NCBI GenBank assembly: GCA_947630085.1
Contig: CANRGP010000017.1
Location: 1-34,332 of the forward strand
Origin: an uncultured Lachnospiraceae bacterium
GTDB lineage: Bacteria; Bacillota; Clostridia; Lachnospirales; Lachnospiraceae
Length of the DNA stretch: 34,332 nucleotides
Direction of reading: 5' to 3'
In this document: positions 12,763-17,986 of the stretch, piece after piece
Layout of the letters: the number at the start of each line of letters is the position of its first letter
Numbering within the stretch: the stretch's first letter is position 1
Position numbers and translations under genes: made by a program
Notes under the pieces: generated by a model
What the model was told of the DNA's origin: nothing
Databases searched by the model: none
The model's input: only the letters and a program-made list of their open reading frames with translations

Positions 12763-13773
12763 TCAATCCAGTTCCCGAAGGCCGCACCCAGGGTCCTGCA
12801 TCGACCGCAGGATCGCCCGGATCCCGTCCGCGAAGGTCGTCTCGGGCTTCCATCCCGTGTCCCGGCAAAGGGCGGAAATATCCGCGCAAAGGTACATGGA
12901 CTGGCCGGGGGCATAGGGAAGCTTCCCGATCCCCAGGCTGCTTCCCGGAGCGGCGATATCCCGTATCTGCCGGATATATTCCGCCAGCGGCCTGGCCCGG
13001 CCGCTTCCCAGGACATAGATGCGGCCGTCAGGACGCGTATCCGGCGTCTGTCCCGCCTCACCGCCTGTTCCGGCCTCCCCGCCTCTTCCGGCCTCCCCGC
13101 CTCTTCCGGCCTCGCCGAGCATCCGCAGTGCCTTCGCGGCATCCCCGCTGTACAGATAATCCCACAGCTGTTCCGCTTTCGTAAACTCCGGCACGATACC
13201 GTCCCGCAGCTTCCGGATGGTAGACATGACCATCGACTGGGCTCCGTCACAGGGGCCGTAGACGCTCAGGATGCGCACCCAGATATGTCCGATCCCCAGC
13301 TGACGGGCATAGTCCCGGGTCATCTGTCCCGCGCACAGCTTCGCATAGCCGTAGCCCATCTGCGGGTGTACCGGGGTTTCCGGGGTAAGCTTCTCACCGC
13401 AGCTTCCGTACTCTGCCTGGGAACCCGCGCCGACAAACAGCCGGCAGCCGAACCGCGCGGCGGCCGCCACGGCGTCAAGCGCAAACGTTACGTTGCGGTT
13501 CTGCAGATACATATCGTTCCTGCCCGGCCCGGACGCTCCTGCCCAGGCAAGATGATAAAACACATCCCAGTCCTGTCCGGTGGTATTCCGGAGCCCGGAC
13601 AGATCCTCCATCGCGCAGGAGATCCGCTTCACCAGCGGGTGCTCCGGGATATTCCGGCTGCGCGGGGAATCGTCCCTCACCAGAACCAGCACCTGCACCC
13701 CGGCCTCGGCCAGCTCCCGCACCAGGGCTGTCCCGATAGCGCCGGTAGCCCCCGTTACAATCGCTCGCGTCAT
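12763..13773 (-). CDS. NAD-dependent epimerase/dehydratase, extended SDR family (336 aa)
   Basis: Rossmann nucleotide-binding motif VTGATGAIG at residues 5-13 and the catalytic YGYAK (Tyr-x3-Lys) near residue 150. VYHLAWAG-type and FVGAGSQAEYG segments are characteristic of nucleotide-sugar epimerases and reductases. A Gly/Glu/Ala-rich insert (EAGRGGEAGRGGEAGTGGEAGQ region, about residues 220-243) comes from an 18-bp tandem repeat. The start is MTRAIVTG, preceded by GGGAGAAGAG. The longer ORF-track start lies inside the ThDP gene, 16 nt upstream. It is the last gene of the topB-linked cassette and probably reduces or epimerises the sugar-like product of the upstream enzymes. The substrate is unknown. 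Confidence 0.85.
   Translation of the reverse strand: MTRAIVTGATGAIGTALVRELAEAGVQVLVLVRDDSPRSRNIPEHPLVKRISCAMEDLSGLRNTTGQDWDVFYHLAWAGASGPGRNDMYLQNRNVTFALDAVAAAARFGCRLFVGAGSQAEYGSCGEKLTPETPVHPQMGYGYAKLCAGQMTRDYARQLGIGHIWVRILSVYGPCDGAQSMVMSTIRKLRDGIVPEFTKAEQLWDYLYSGDAAKALRMLGEAGRGGEAGRGGEAGTGGEAGQTPDTRPDGRIYVLGSGRARPLAEYIRQIRDIAAPGSSLGIGKLPYAPGQSMYLCADISALCRDTGWKPETTFADGIRAILRSMQDPGCGLRELD
13045..13116. repeat. 18-bp in-frame tandem repeat in the SDR gene
   Basis: Three near-identical units of GCCTCTTCCGGCCTCCCC, plus one diverged unit to the left, encode a repeated GGEAGR hexapeptide. The unit length is a multiple of three, so copy-number change would alter length but not frame. Confidence 0.8.
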
Positions 13774-13789
13774 CGCATCTCTTCTCCCA

Positions 13790-15622
13790 TCAGATTTCTT
13801 TTCGGCAGACGGTATCGCTCCCGGAGCCGTACCGTATCTTTTCAAATTCCTCCCGGTCAAGGAACGGCGCCATATCGTCAAGCGACGGTGATACGATGCG
13901 CCCGTCAGGGAGCACCCTGGAGGAGGACTTGGGTGCAAAGTTCTGTTCCGGATCCACCACGGCCTCGCAGATACAGGGGCCGTCACAGTTAAGCGCCTCC
14001 TCGAGCACGGGTCCGCAGTTTTCCTCACTGTCCAGCATGAAATATGCAAGTCCGAACGCCTGGGCCAGCTTTCCGAAATCCGGGAACCCGACGCCGCTTT
14101 CCGGGTCGATGCCGATCAGGGGCGGTTGGAAGAGGTTTCTCTGCGTCTGGCGGATCGAATGGTACCCGTTGTTGTTAAGGACTATGATCTTCACATTCAG
14201 GCGGTTGTGGGCAATGGTGGCCAGCTCCTGGAGGTTCATCATGATGCTTCCGTCGCCGTCGATGCAGACGGTCCTTCGGCTGTTGTCGGAGACCGCCACG
14301 CCGAGGGCGGCCGGAAGCCCGTATCCCATCGCCGCGCATCCGGAATTGGTAAACATCCGCTGCCCCTGCCTGATCTTTGCCGCCTGGAACGTGATCACAC
14401 AGGCGCTTCCGTTTCCGCAGATGATCCTCTCATCCTCCCGGAGCCTGTCAAACAGGCTGTCCATAAAGATATACGGATTGACAGGACCGCCGTCCCGCCT
14501 GTGATAATCCGGCAGCGCCGCCGGATACGTCTTCATCAGGCTGCGGCACCAGACCACCCAGGCTTCATGCTTCTTCTGCGGCTCATAGTCCGCCGCCAAG
14601 AGACGCCCGATCAGATCCTTTACATCGGCGTTTACCGGCATATCGGGACGCACCGTGGGTTTTAAGAGCTCCCGCGGATCAATATCCACGATGATCTTAT
14701 ATGCGTTCTTTGCAAAATCAAAATGGTTGTATCCAATCATACGGATGTTCAGCCGGCATCCCAGGCTCAAAAGCAGATCGCAGTTCTGCACCGCGAAATT
14801 TCCCGGACGCGTTCCCACAGTCCCGGGCATCCCCGCAAAATACGGATTATCATAGGCCACCGTATCATTGGCGTTCCAGGCGGTAACGACCGGGATCCGG
14901 AGCTTTTCTATCAGCCGCAAAAGCCCGTCCTCCGCATCGCCCAGGCGGATCCCCGTTCCCGCTAACAGAAGAGGCGAGCGGGCCTCGCGGATCTTTTCGA
15001 GAATGGCCTGCACCGTATCGTCCGTGAGCTCCGGAAGCTTCCGGGATTCCTCCGCGGCCGGGTCAAAATGGACCAGCTCCTCCGTCTCCACCACCGCCCC
15101 CTGGACATCCAGGGGCACATCGATCCAACCCGGCCCGCCCCTGCCGTCAAGCGCCAGGTAGAGGGCCTTCTCCAGATGGTAAGCGCAGCGGGCGGGATCC
15201 GTCATCATCACCGCATATTTCGTCATGTTGGACACCGAGCGGATAATGTCAAATTCCTGGTCCCCCAGCTGACGGAGCCCAAGCTCCGGACACGACCAGA
15301 CCGTCGTTTCGCGCTTCACCTGCCCGGACAGCACAAACATGGGGATGGAATCCAGCCAGCCGCCCATAACCCCGGTAATGGCGTTGGTCCCGCCGGGTCC
15401 GCTGGTCACGCAGACCGCCGCCAGGCGTCCGGTCATACGGGTATATGCCTCCGCCGCGATGGCGCACGCCTGCTCGTGGTGGTTGAAAATGCACCGCAGT
15501 CCCTCCTGGTGGCCTATGGCGTCATCCAGGTGCATCGCGCCCCCTCCGGTAACCATAAAGCAGTCCGTAATGCCGTGCTCCTTCAAAAAAAGTGAAATGT
15601 ATTTCGCAACTTTTATTTTCAT
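13790..15622 (-). CDS. Acetolactate-synthase-like ThDP-dependent enzyme (610 aa)
   Basis: Full-length three-domain ThDP enzyme. The N-terminal Pyr domain carries the catalytic Glu in NHHEQACAIAAEAY (Glu50). It is followed by TSGPGGTNAITGV, a central Rossmann-like domain, and the PP domain with the ThDP motif GDGSIMMNLQELATIAHN...NNNGY. It resembles IlvB, but no small regulatory subunit is present and the neighbours are an aldolase, a HAD phosphatase and an SDR. That suggests a specialised carboligase or decarboxylase, for example a two-carbon transfer from pyruvate onto a keto-sugar as known for YerE in yersiniose synthesis. This role is inference. The start is ATG directly after a GAGAGG-type site; the spacing to both neighbours is short (16 and 39 nt). 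Confidence 0.87.
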   Translation of the reverse strand: MKIKVAKYISLFLKEHGITDCFMVTGGGAMHLDDAIGHQEGLRCIFNHHEQACAIAAEAYTRMTGRLAAVCVTSGPGGTNAITGVMGGWLDSIPMFVLSGQVKRETTVWSCPELGLRQLGDQEFDIIRSVSNMTKYAVMMTDPARCAYHLEKALYLALDGRGGPGWIDVPLDVQGAVVETEELVHFDPAAEESRKLPELTDDTVQAILEKIREARSPLLLAGTGIRLGDAEDGLLRLIEKLRIPVVTAWNANDTVAYDNPYFAGMPGTVGTRPGNFAVQNCDLLLSLGCRLNIRMIGYNHFDFAKNAYKIIVDIDPRELLKPTVRPDMPVNADVKDLIGRLLAADYEPQKKHEAWVVWCRSLMKTYPAALPDYHRRDGGPVNPYIFMDSLFDRLREDERIICGNGSACVITFQAAKIRQGQRMFTNSGCAAMGYGLPAALGVAVSDNSRRTVCIDGDGSIMMNLQELATIAHNRLNVKIIVLNNNGYHSIRQTQRNLFQPPLIGIDPESGVGFPDFGKLAQAFGLAYFMLDSEENCGPVLEEALNCDGPCICEAVVDPEQNFAPKSSSRVLPDGRIVSPSLDDMAPFLDREEFEKIRYGSGSDTVCRKEI

Positions 15623-15661
15623 GGTCTTTCACCTCTCCCGTATCGTTTTCCCGGTCCTGCC

Positions 15662-16351
15662 TCACGCGCCGCAGAGCAGGCCGAGGATATCCGACGGTTT
15701 TTCCGCGATCCCCACATTGGGCACGCCGTCCAGGTCCTTCGCCTCACGGAAGCCGAATCCGTAGGTCACCGCCAGGAAATCCACCCCCAGCTTCGCGGCC
15801 CCCTCCGCGTCGTGCACGGTGTCTCCTATCATCACCACGCGGCGCAGATCCGTCACTCCGGCTTCGGCGATGCACATTCGGATGATATCCTGTTTCTTCA
15901 GCCGGTTCTCATGATCCGCTCCGTGCATGACCTTCATATATTTCCCGAAGCCGTAATGTTCAAGGAGCGTCACCGCGTAATCCTCCCGCTTGTAGGTAGC
16001 CACGGCCGGAACGATGCCCCGATCCAGAAGCCCCCGGCAGAGGTCATAGATCCCCTCATACGGTCTGGCCTTCAGAAGATCCACATCCTTGTAGCGGTCG
16101 CGAAAAACCGTGGCGATCTCCTGGAGGACGGGGCCCGACAGGCCGTAGGCCGCCGCAAAGGAATCCTGGATCGGCGGCCCGATAAAGGCAGCCAGACGCT
16201 CCTCGGAAAGCATGGGATATCCCATCTTTTCGATGGTGTACCGGGCAGCGGCCAGCACCCCCTCCGTTGTGTCCAGAAGCGTGCCGTCCAGATCAAAGAC
16301 CGCCGCGTCATACCGCCCTCCCCCGCGGATCTTTTTCTCATTTTCCGTCAT
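15662..16351 (-). CDS. HAD-superfamily hydrolase, phosphoglycolate phosphatase-like (229 aa)
   Basis: HAD motif I is FDLDGTLLDTT (nucleophile Asp20, acid Asp22), motif II is in VATYK (Thr in place of the common Ser), and motif IV is VMIGDTVHDAEGA. A helical C1 cap lies between I and II (MGYPMLSEERLAAFIGPP), as in the Gph/PGP branch. The protein is typical in length and soluble. Placed between the aldolase (24 nt upstream) and the ThDP gene (39 nt downstream), it likely dephosphorylates an intermediate of the cassette's pathway. GAGAGGAAAC precedes the ATG. The substrate cannot be read from the sequence. Confidence 0.88.
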   Translation of the reverse strand: MTENEKKIRGGGRYDAAVFDLDGTLLDTTEGVLAAARYTIEKMGYPMLSEERLAAFIGPPIQDSFAAAYGLSGPVLQEIATVFRDRYKDVDLLKARPYEGIYDLCRGLLDRGIVPAVATYKREDYAVTLLEHYGFGKYMKVMHGADHENRLKKQDIIRMCIAEAGVTDLRRVVMIGDTVHDAEGAAKLGVDFLAVTYGFGFREAKDLDGVPNVGIAEKPSDILGLLCGA

Positions 16352-16375
16352 TTTCTGTTTCCTCTCCCGCCGTTT

Positions 16376-17986
16376 TCAGCACGTTTTTTCTTCCGGTACC
16401 TCATAGCGTGTATCCGTCAGAAAAGTCACCCGGATCCGGTCCCGGATCCCGCTCAGGAAATCGCGGATATAGCGGTTCAGATACCGGGCCTTGCTCTTCA
16501 CAAAATCATACTCCATATCCATGTTGTGATAATTGTCCGTCTCGCTGGAATAGCCGTCAAATCCGGCAAGGGATACTTCGGTGCACCCCACCGAGATCAG
16601 TGTTTTCAGGAGCATGACCAGAGAGTTGTCCGGGATCTCCTCCCCCGCGTCGATCAGGCTGCTGTAATTCAGCGTATAGTCAAACGCGTCCTCGCTTGTC
16701 CCGGTCACGTTGGATGTGGCGATCACACGGTATCTCTCCTGGCTGAGCCGGGTAGCCAAATGCAGATAGCGCTTGGAATTGCTCAGAAAAATGTATTCCG
16801 GACGGAAATCCTCCGGCACATAATTGATGGAGATCACGACCGGATCGTTTTCCCGCAGATATCTCCGGATCCGGTCCTGCTGGGTCTTTACCGTCACGCC
16901 CGGCCCGATGACCAGGATCTTTTTCCCGGCCAGGGCAGCCTTGAGGCGCTTCCGGTCGGTCTCGTCGTTGACCTCGTTTTTCTGATATTCCACATACAGC
17001 TGCTCGATATAGTTTTTGTCGTAGAGCAGCTTCTTTTCACCCTCCAGCTTCCGGAGCACCGCCAGGATGGATTTGACGGACAGGGTCCTCTTGTCCATCA
17101 GATAGGCCACATAGTTGGGATGGCAGTCGCTGGACGCGGCAATGTAGTAGAACATATTGTAGCCCCAGCTGGCCGGATGGTAAAACTGGGACAGGCTGGA
17201 GTCGATCGCCTCCAGGATCTGGCTGATATGGTAGCGCTTGCCGAGCACATTGTTCATGTGCATGGCGATCAGCTCGATCGGCGCATTTCCGGCGCTTTTT
17301 CCCATACCATAGATCGTTCCGTCCACCACCATCGTCCTCTGCGTCTCCATGGACAGCATTGCGATGCAGTTCGCATAGCCCATCTGAAAATTGTTGTGGG
17401 CATGATAACCGAGTCCGATCTCCGGATCCAGGTGCTCGTCGAGCAGACGAAAATAATGCATCAGATTATTCTGGTGCATCAGGCCATAGGTATCCACCAT
17501 GGATACGGCATAGGGTCTGACCTCGTTAGCCAGCCGGATCAGATCCATCATCTCCTCATCGCTGTAGCTGGTCACGCTTACCAGCTGGGCGAAGACCTTG
17601 TAGCCGAGCTCCTTGAGCCGGCTGCAGAACTCCAGCGCCGGACGGCGCAGATGCTTTTTGAAGATCACCCGGATCCCGTCAAGATAGCTTTCCCGGCAGG
17701 GCTGGATCTGTCCGATCCCGCAGGTCCCGTAATCGATCATTCCCACGACCGTCGCCTGCTTCCTGTCCAGGCGCCCGTAGATCCTTTCCGCGCTGGCCGT
17801 ATCCGGCATGATGCTCCGATCCATATCGAAAGGACGCCTTTCGTCCAGGAATCCTATCTCGATGATATCCACGCCCGCGTCTACCAGGCGTTCAAAGATG
17901 TTCACCAGATTGTCGTGACCGAATTTCCAGTCGTTCAGGTATCCGCCGTCCCGCAGCGTACAGTCCAAAAGCCTCACATCGCCCAT
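16376..17986 (-). CDS. DRE-TIM (HMGL-like) aldolase domain fused to a Rossmann-like domain (536 aa)
   Basis: The N-terminal ~300 residues form an HMGL/4-hydroxy-2-oxovalerate-aldolase-type barrel. Metal and catalytic residues are in LLDCTLRDGGY (residues 6-16) and in the metal-binding HxH of GYHAHNNFQMG, followed by VDGTIYGMGKSAGNAP. From about residue 355 a second domain starts with KKILVIGPGVTVKTQQDRI, a glycine-rich Rossmann-like fold reminiscent of MptE/DUF115 domains seen in glycan-related proteins. This assignment is tentative. Such fusions occur in surface-polysaccharide loci. The start is MGDVRLLDC, preceded by GGGGAGGAG; the ORF-track start 29 codons upstream overlaps topB. It probably makes or breaks a C-C bond with a pyruvate-like substrate. 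Confidence 0.85.
   Translation of the reverse strand: MGDVRLLDCTLRDGGYLNDWKFGHDNLVNIFERLVDAGVDIIEIGFLDERRPFDMDRSIMPDTASAERIYGRLDRKQATVVGMIDYGTCGIGQIQPCRESYLDGIRVIFKKHLRRPALEFCSRLKELGYKVFAQLVSVTSYSDEEMMDLIRLANEVRPYAVSMVDTYGLMHQNNLMHYFRLLDEHLDPEIGLGYHAHNNFQMGYANCIAMLSMETQRTMVVDGTIYGMGKSAGNAPIELIAMHMNNVLGKRYHISQILEAIDSSLSQFYHPASWGYNMFYYIAASSDCHPNYVAYLMDKRTLSVKSILAVLRKLEGEKKLLYDKNYIEQLYVEYQKNEVNDETDRKRLKAALAGKKILVIGPGVTVKTQQDRIRRYLRENDPVVISINYVPEDFRPEYIFLSNSKRYLHLATRLSQERYRVIATSNVTGTSEDAFDYTLNYSSLIDAGEEIPDNSLVMLLKTLISVGCTEVSLAGFDGYSSETDNYHNMDMEYDFVKSKARYLNRYIRDFLSGIRDRIRVTFLTDTRYEVPEEKTC

Follow-up and report, generated by a model that had tools for sequence, protein, structure and literature searches.

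What product might be made by a four-gene operon in an uncultured Lachnospiraceae bacterium that encodes a fused aldolase, a HAD-type phosphatase, a ThDP-dependent enzyme and an SDR? We analyzed the window, a 34,332-nucleotide stretch of contig CANRGP010000017.1 (assembly GCA_947630085.1), together with related loci. The original prediction, made from the letters of the window, held that the product could not be foretold from sequence alone. Its class becomes partly predictable once genomic context is added, as a C-branched CDP-3,6-dideoxyhexose, and the exact product can only be inferred.

Gene content and conservation of the operon

The four complete open reading frames lie on the minus strand (17986-12763) and form one operon, with gaps of 24, 39 and 16 bp between aldolase and HAD, HAD and ThDP, and ThDP and SDR genes, respectively (Table 1). 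The end of topB lies 46 bp away on the upstream side, and 501 bp separate the SDR gene from the next gene. A purine-rich, RBS-like stretch precedes each of the four starts. The tight spacing and the domain families of the original prediction were thus confirmed, the latter by Pfam (HMGL-like, HAD_2, TPP_enzyme N/M/C and Epimerase). The sole coordinate correction concerns the SDR gene, whose start was listed as TTG 14049; the conserved start is the ATG at 13773, and the TTG-extended frame would overlap the ThDP gene. The HAD protein falls under all equivalog cut-offs. Relatives of the SDR lack the GEAGRG-rich insert encoded by its tandem repeat or carry a different form.

Table 1. Features of the operon and their supporting evidence
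Feature	Coordinates	Strand	Evidence
Fused aldolase, DRE-TIM/HMGL-like N-domain and MptE/SteA-like C-domain, 536 aa	16376..17986	-	Pfam HMGL-like, 92.6 bits
C-terminal domain of the fused aldolase, residues 343-531	16394..16960	-	Foldseek MptE/SteA; conserved motifs
HAD-type phosphatase, phosphoglycolate-phosphatase-like, 229 aa	15662..16351	-	Pfam HAD_2, 100 bits
YerE-like ThDP-dependent carboligase, 610 aa	13790..15622	-	Pfam TPP_enzyme N/M/C; JanthE 8rph, E 6e-124
SDR/NAD-dependent epimerase-family protein, 336 aa	12763..13773	-	Pfam Epimerase, 119.7 bits
18-bp tandem repeat inside the SDR gene, encoding a GEAGRG-type insert	13051..13117	-	TRF, 3.7 copies, 91% matches

A scan of 84,980 genomes yielded 69 loci, mainly from Clostridia such as Lachnospiraceae and Oscillospiraceae, with Treponema and one Bacteroides besides. 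Where the aldolase is flanked by 5 kb or more in both directions (45 loci), a ThDP gene lies near in 43, an SDR gene in 32 and a HAD gene in 21, and rfbF, rfbG and rfbH are near in 24, 24 and 26; these counts take in near-duplicate genomes and are uncorrected for relatedness. Aldolase and ThDP genes occur together in 55 related loci, 38 of which keep the SDR. A cultured strain, Roseburia inulinivorans DSM 16841, is among the carriers of the cassette (cluster L077). The grouping of these four genes goes beyond chance; the search across genomes proposed with the original prediction finds the set conserved elsewhere. Within a genus sample of 26 genomes that included the window's own, copies above 80% identity were present in four, and the cassette is therefore an accessory trait.

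The ThDP enzyme and the fused aldolase

The closest solved relative of the ThDP enzyme is 8rph, far ahead of AHAS I (E 3e-71). This structure is JanthE, a YerE-like enzyme (PMC12188165). The protein is 36% identical to JanthE and about 30% identical to AHAS, with alignment scores of 417.7 and 243.8 bits, respectively. The alignment with JanthE reaches residue 599, whereas those with two AHAS chains end at 564 and 557, so that the C-terminal extension past the AHAS alignments is common to the window protein and JanthE. In a maximum-likelihood tree, JanthE falls with the window protein and the relatives of that protein, apart from AHAS (including IlvB of family members), at a split with 100/100 support. 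JanthE, rather than YerE or ErwE, was the characterised reference in these comparisons, and its long branch leaves its exact placement among the window relatives unsure. Of five hot-spot residues in JanthE, the enzyme keeps only two (by our own alignment, with a one-residue numbering offset).

Could the protein nevertheless be an acetolactate synthase for amino-acid or acetoin metabolism? Its best NCBIfam model by score is acolac_lg (TIGR00118), and its own genome, a MAG that is 79% complete, shows IlvN and no second IlvB. However, the score of 332.0 bits is far below the cut-off of 538.35, JanthE is nearer in alignment and in the C-terminal extension, and the tree splits the protein from the IlvB of sister genomes. 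The two sister genomes (G001 and G002) hold this ThDP gene plus a separate true IlvB, and also IlvN, which for those relatives speaks against the possibility, raised at the outset, that it is the organism's only acetolactate synthase with IlvN encoded elsewhere. With IlvB it has three TPP domains and roughly 30% identity in common; it differs in its sub-cut-off score, separate clade, extra C-terminal segment and an operon without IlvN. We rejected acetolactate synthase on the score, the tree and the sister genomes, and consider this reading highly improbable; by sequence, the enzyme belongs with the YerE-like carboligases. In a separate plasmid search with the ThDP enzyme, the 25 matches listed were mostly annotated as AHAS.

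Both sequence and predicted structure (mean pLDDT 89) place the aldolase N-domain with 4-hydroxy-2-oxovalerate aldolases, the top Foldseek matches being 4jn6 and 1nvm; together with the HMGL-like Pfam hit, this upholds the DRE-TIM assignment. R12, D13, H195 and H197 are invariant across 31 relatives, and we take D13, H195 and H197 to be the metal-ligand positions (Asp and HxH) of DRE-TIM aldolases. Tyr16 stands at the position of His21, the catalytic His of DmpG. DmpG, BphI and MhpE have the DRE-TIM fold and the metal-ligand motifs in common with the N-domain, for which they are the best structural match. In contrast to them, the window protein carries an extra C-domain and the Tyr, its TIGR03217 score is 81 against a cut-off of 286 bits, and its operon has no acetaldehyde dehydrogenase partner. 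A dedicated HOA aldolase of meta-cleavage pathways was rejected on the sub-equivalog score and the lack of a DmpF-type partner in the operon.

No Pfam family matched the C-domain of the window protein; PF01973 likewise gave no match there, and matched two of the 31 relatives weakly (best E 0.036). Foldseek searches with the C-domain model (pLDDT 90) placed archaeal HPPK (MptE) and SteA best, with E 2e-5 and TM of about 0.49. Instead of the generic Rossmann-like domain first described, the model resembles MptE-type HPPK and SteA, a likeness of fold only and at low similarity. A GT42 sialyltransferase identity was rejected, with a profile E of only 0.083 and no place among the listed fold matches. 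The motifs AGFDGY, NSKRY and TSN are conserved and several residues are invariant, suggesting that the C-domain is probably functional.

The CDP-keto-sugar genes and a proposed phosphate step

The products of rfbF, rfbG and rfbH make CDP-4-keto-3,6-dideoxyglucose. This nucleotide sugar is the acceptor of YerE and YerE-like enzymes (PMC12247030). At least one rfb gene lies within 7.5 kb in 38 of the 55 aldolase-ThDP loci, and in 34 of the 43 that are well flanked, spanning Bacillota, Treponema and Bacteroides; about one fifth of the well-flanked loci have none nearby. A GT2 or GtrA gene is present in 22 of the 55. The GT2 resembles PgfS/ArnC (polyprenyl-phosphate-sugar GT2), and GtrA matches PF04138.

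The genome that carries the window also has the three rfb genes, all above their NCBIfam cut-offs (RfbF 330.7 against 300.25, RfbG 440.4 against 278.45, RfbH 714.6 against 423). rfbG and rfbH lie on contig C6 in a surface-glycan cluster that also holds HddA/HddC-like (heptose-nucleotide) genes, and whose sister-genome counterpart contains SIS, HAD, LicD and GT2 families. rfbF is apart from them on contig C20, where it stands alone among other genes (L098, 9970-10734). In this 79% complete MAG, rfbFGH do not lie next to the window cassette, and these genes could alternatively serve an ordinary 3,6-dideoxyhexose. Since the rfb and glycan genes are on other contigs, the cassette probably supplies a sugar used elsewhere, in line with the precursor role envisaged in the original prediction.

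The HAD gene is present in 27 of the 55 loci, and 12 others carry an AroB-like putative phospholyase gene (TIGR04425), always with a second SDR. The two never share a locus (naive hypergeometric P 7e-5, uncorrected for relatedness). The AroB label falls in several places on the ThDP tree and needs at least four to five changes; one event thus does not account for the alternation. Loci with the AroB-like gene and a classical SDR in place of HAD are L027, L041, L046, L052, L056, L057, L065, L068, L073, L074, L076 and L085; this version could give a cyclised or deoxy-ended branch, and the ten-carbon bicyclic sugar bradyrhizose may offer a comparison. Neither gene occurs in 14 of the 43 well-flanked loci, indicating that phosphate removal is not universal or that another enzyme performs it.

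Diverged fused aldolases (25-36% identical) adjoin KdsB on a Leisingera plasmid (262.6 bits against 255), CTP_transf_3 cytidylyltransferases in L012 and L013, and a KdsC-type phosphatase in L123 (149.7 against 106.95). These neighbours suggest, by family and for distant relatives, that such aldolases make phosphorylated 3-deoxy-2-ulosonic acids. Together, the HAD and AroB-like genes and the ulosonate-gene company of the diverged aldolases suggest a phosphorylated intermediate in the window pathway as well, an argument limited by the 14 well-flanked loci that lack both genes.

Other arrangements of these families were also seen. On the Leisingera caerulea plasmid (L124, 9001-12003), a fused aldolase, a CMP-Kdo-synthetase-like gene and a HAD gene stand in a row, a candidate pathway for some ulosonic acid. 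Close aldolase and HAD relatives accompany an epimerase and no ThDP gene in L066 (10001-14328), where an ATP-grasp gene also lies beside them, and in L067 (2708-7061); this would be another use of the fused aldolase. On a Desulfobaculum bizertense plasmid (L125, 5846-10014), rfbH, a split transketolase and a single-domain aldolase are consecutive genes, possibly a parallel route with a different ThDP enzyme.

A proposed route to a C-branched sugar

Taken together, we consider it likely that the product of the operon is a C-branched 3,6-dideoxyhexose, linked to CDP and destined for a glycan of the cell surface, and that it is built in four steps. The aldolase would condense pyruvate with a hydroxyaldehyde, probably phosphorylated, to yield the phosphate of a 4-hydroxy-2-oxo (3-deoxy-2-ulosonic) acid, from which the HAD enzyme would strip the phosphate. 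The YerE-like enzyme would then decarboxylate the acid and place the acyl chain on C4 of CDP-4-keto-3,6-dideoxyglucose, which RfbF, RfbG and RfbH, encoded elsewhere in the genome, would supply; the addition would create a tertiary alcohol. Finally, we propose that the SDR reduces the ketone thus formed in the side chain. Many relatives have GT2 and GtrA, which would probably load the sugar onto polyprenyl phosphate and flip it. The genes and their families, their recurring association and the rfb genes of the same genome are observed; we infer all of these reactions, along with which aldehyde is used, how long the chain is and which sugar results.

Donors of the 4-hydroxy-2-oxo acid class are preferred by ErwE, and JanthE takes 4-hydroxy-2-oxovalerate (PMC12247030, PMC12188165); acids of this class are what the nearest relatives of the aldolase produce, a point in favour of the route. 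In caryophyllose, a C12 sugar, C4 bears a hydroxylated C6 chain (PMC7821131), as would result from a hexose and a C7 2-oxo acid that has lost CO2. Against the route we counted the Tyr at the His21 position, the 36% identity to JanthE and its long branch, the two of five hot-spot residues, the 14 of 43 loci lacking both HAD and AroB-like genes, the position of the window cassette away from rfbFGH in an incomplete MAG, and the possible use of these rfb genes for an ordinary 3,6-dideoxyhexose. Genomic context supports the originally envisaged sequence of C-C bond formation, dephosphorylation, ThDP chemistry and reduction to a branched sugar as a probable reading; the two-carbon unit proposed with it is probably too small, because the aldolase would supply a longer 2-oxo acid.

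A more tentative idea, which we put at somewhat under an even chance, is that the acyl donor is a 3-deoxy-2-ulosonic acid of the Kdo or KDN type that, instead of being CMP-activated, is grafted in decarboxylated form onto the CDP-keto-sugar by the YerE-like enzyme. If so, an AroB-like enzyme in place of HAD would alter the chain end or close a second ring, and long-branched sugars built by this route would be widespread in glycans of gut Firmicutes. Genes of the Kdo, KDN and pseudaminic-acid pathways (KdsC, KdsB, PseF) offer a parallel in that KdsC-type or CMP-ulosonate cytidylyltransferase genes adjoin the diverged fused aldolases. In contrast to those pathways, the window operon has no cytidylyltransferase, and its acid would be decarboxylated and grafted by the ThDP enzyme.

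The shared occurrence of aldolase and ThDP genes also bears on a yersiniose-type alternative, in which the ThDP enzyme adds only an acetyl branch, from pyruvate, and a separate decoration comes from aldolase and HAD. Pyruvate is the donor of YerE itself (PMC12247030), and the 14 loci without HAD and AroB-like genes would fit; the pairing of the two genes in 43 of 45 well-flanked loci, usually side by side, and the 4-hydroxy-2-oxo acid donors of ErwE and JanthE make this reading unlikely. We give slightly less credence to a non-sugar product, a hydroxy acid or other small metabolite, with the rfb link a coincidence of glycan-gene clustering. The separation of the window cassette from rfb genes, and their absence near about a fifth of the well-flanked loci, agree with it, but it sits poorly with the 34 of 43 loci that have them across three bacterial groups and with the GT2/GtrA genes in 22 of 55.

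The C-branched sugar that we favour would resemble erwiniose or caryophyllose in its chemistry; these and yersiniose are C4-branched sugars. The window operon has the ThDP family, the CDP-4-keto-3,6-dideoxyglucose genes and the tertiary-alcohol branch logic in common with the YerE, ErwE and JanthE systems, and the 4-hydroxy-2-oxo acid-type donor proposed for it is that of ErwE and JanthE. It appears to differ in its fused aldolase, and differs in the HAD or AroB-like step and in a canonical GDG motif where JanthE has CDG; window-type loci are mostly from gut Firmicutes with GT2/GtrA, whereas those systems belong to Gram-negative LPS.

Chemistry of this general kind is known in a few other bacteria; its aldolase-phosphatase form in gut Firmicutes seems to be a variant that has gone unstudied. 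In the literature examined, which did not extend to the main survey of YerE-like enzymes, we met no account of a fused aldolase combined with a HAD or AroB-like step and GT2/GtrA in gut Firmicutes, so the novelty of this variant is provisional. For the vast majority of the more than 200 predicted YerE-like enzymes, structures are unknown (PMC12247030). The operons would also supply new pairs of aldolase and carboligase for tertiary-alcohol synthesis, and might give a function to a fused C-domain that no Pfam family matches. If the proposed route is correct, it would provide a pathway open to testing for branched sugars of higher carbon number, whose biosynthesis mostly lacks assignment, and common gut bacteria, among them the cultured Roseburia inulinivorans, would carry such sugars.
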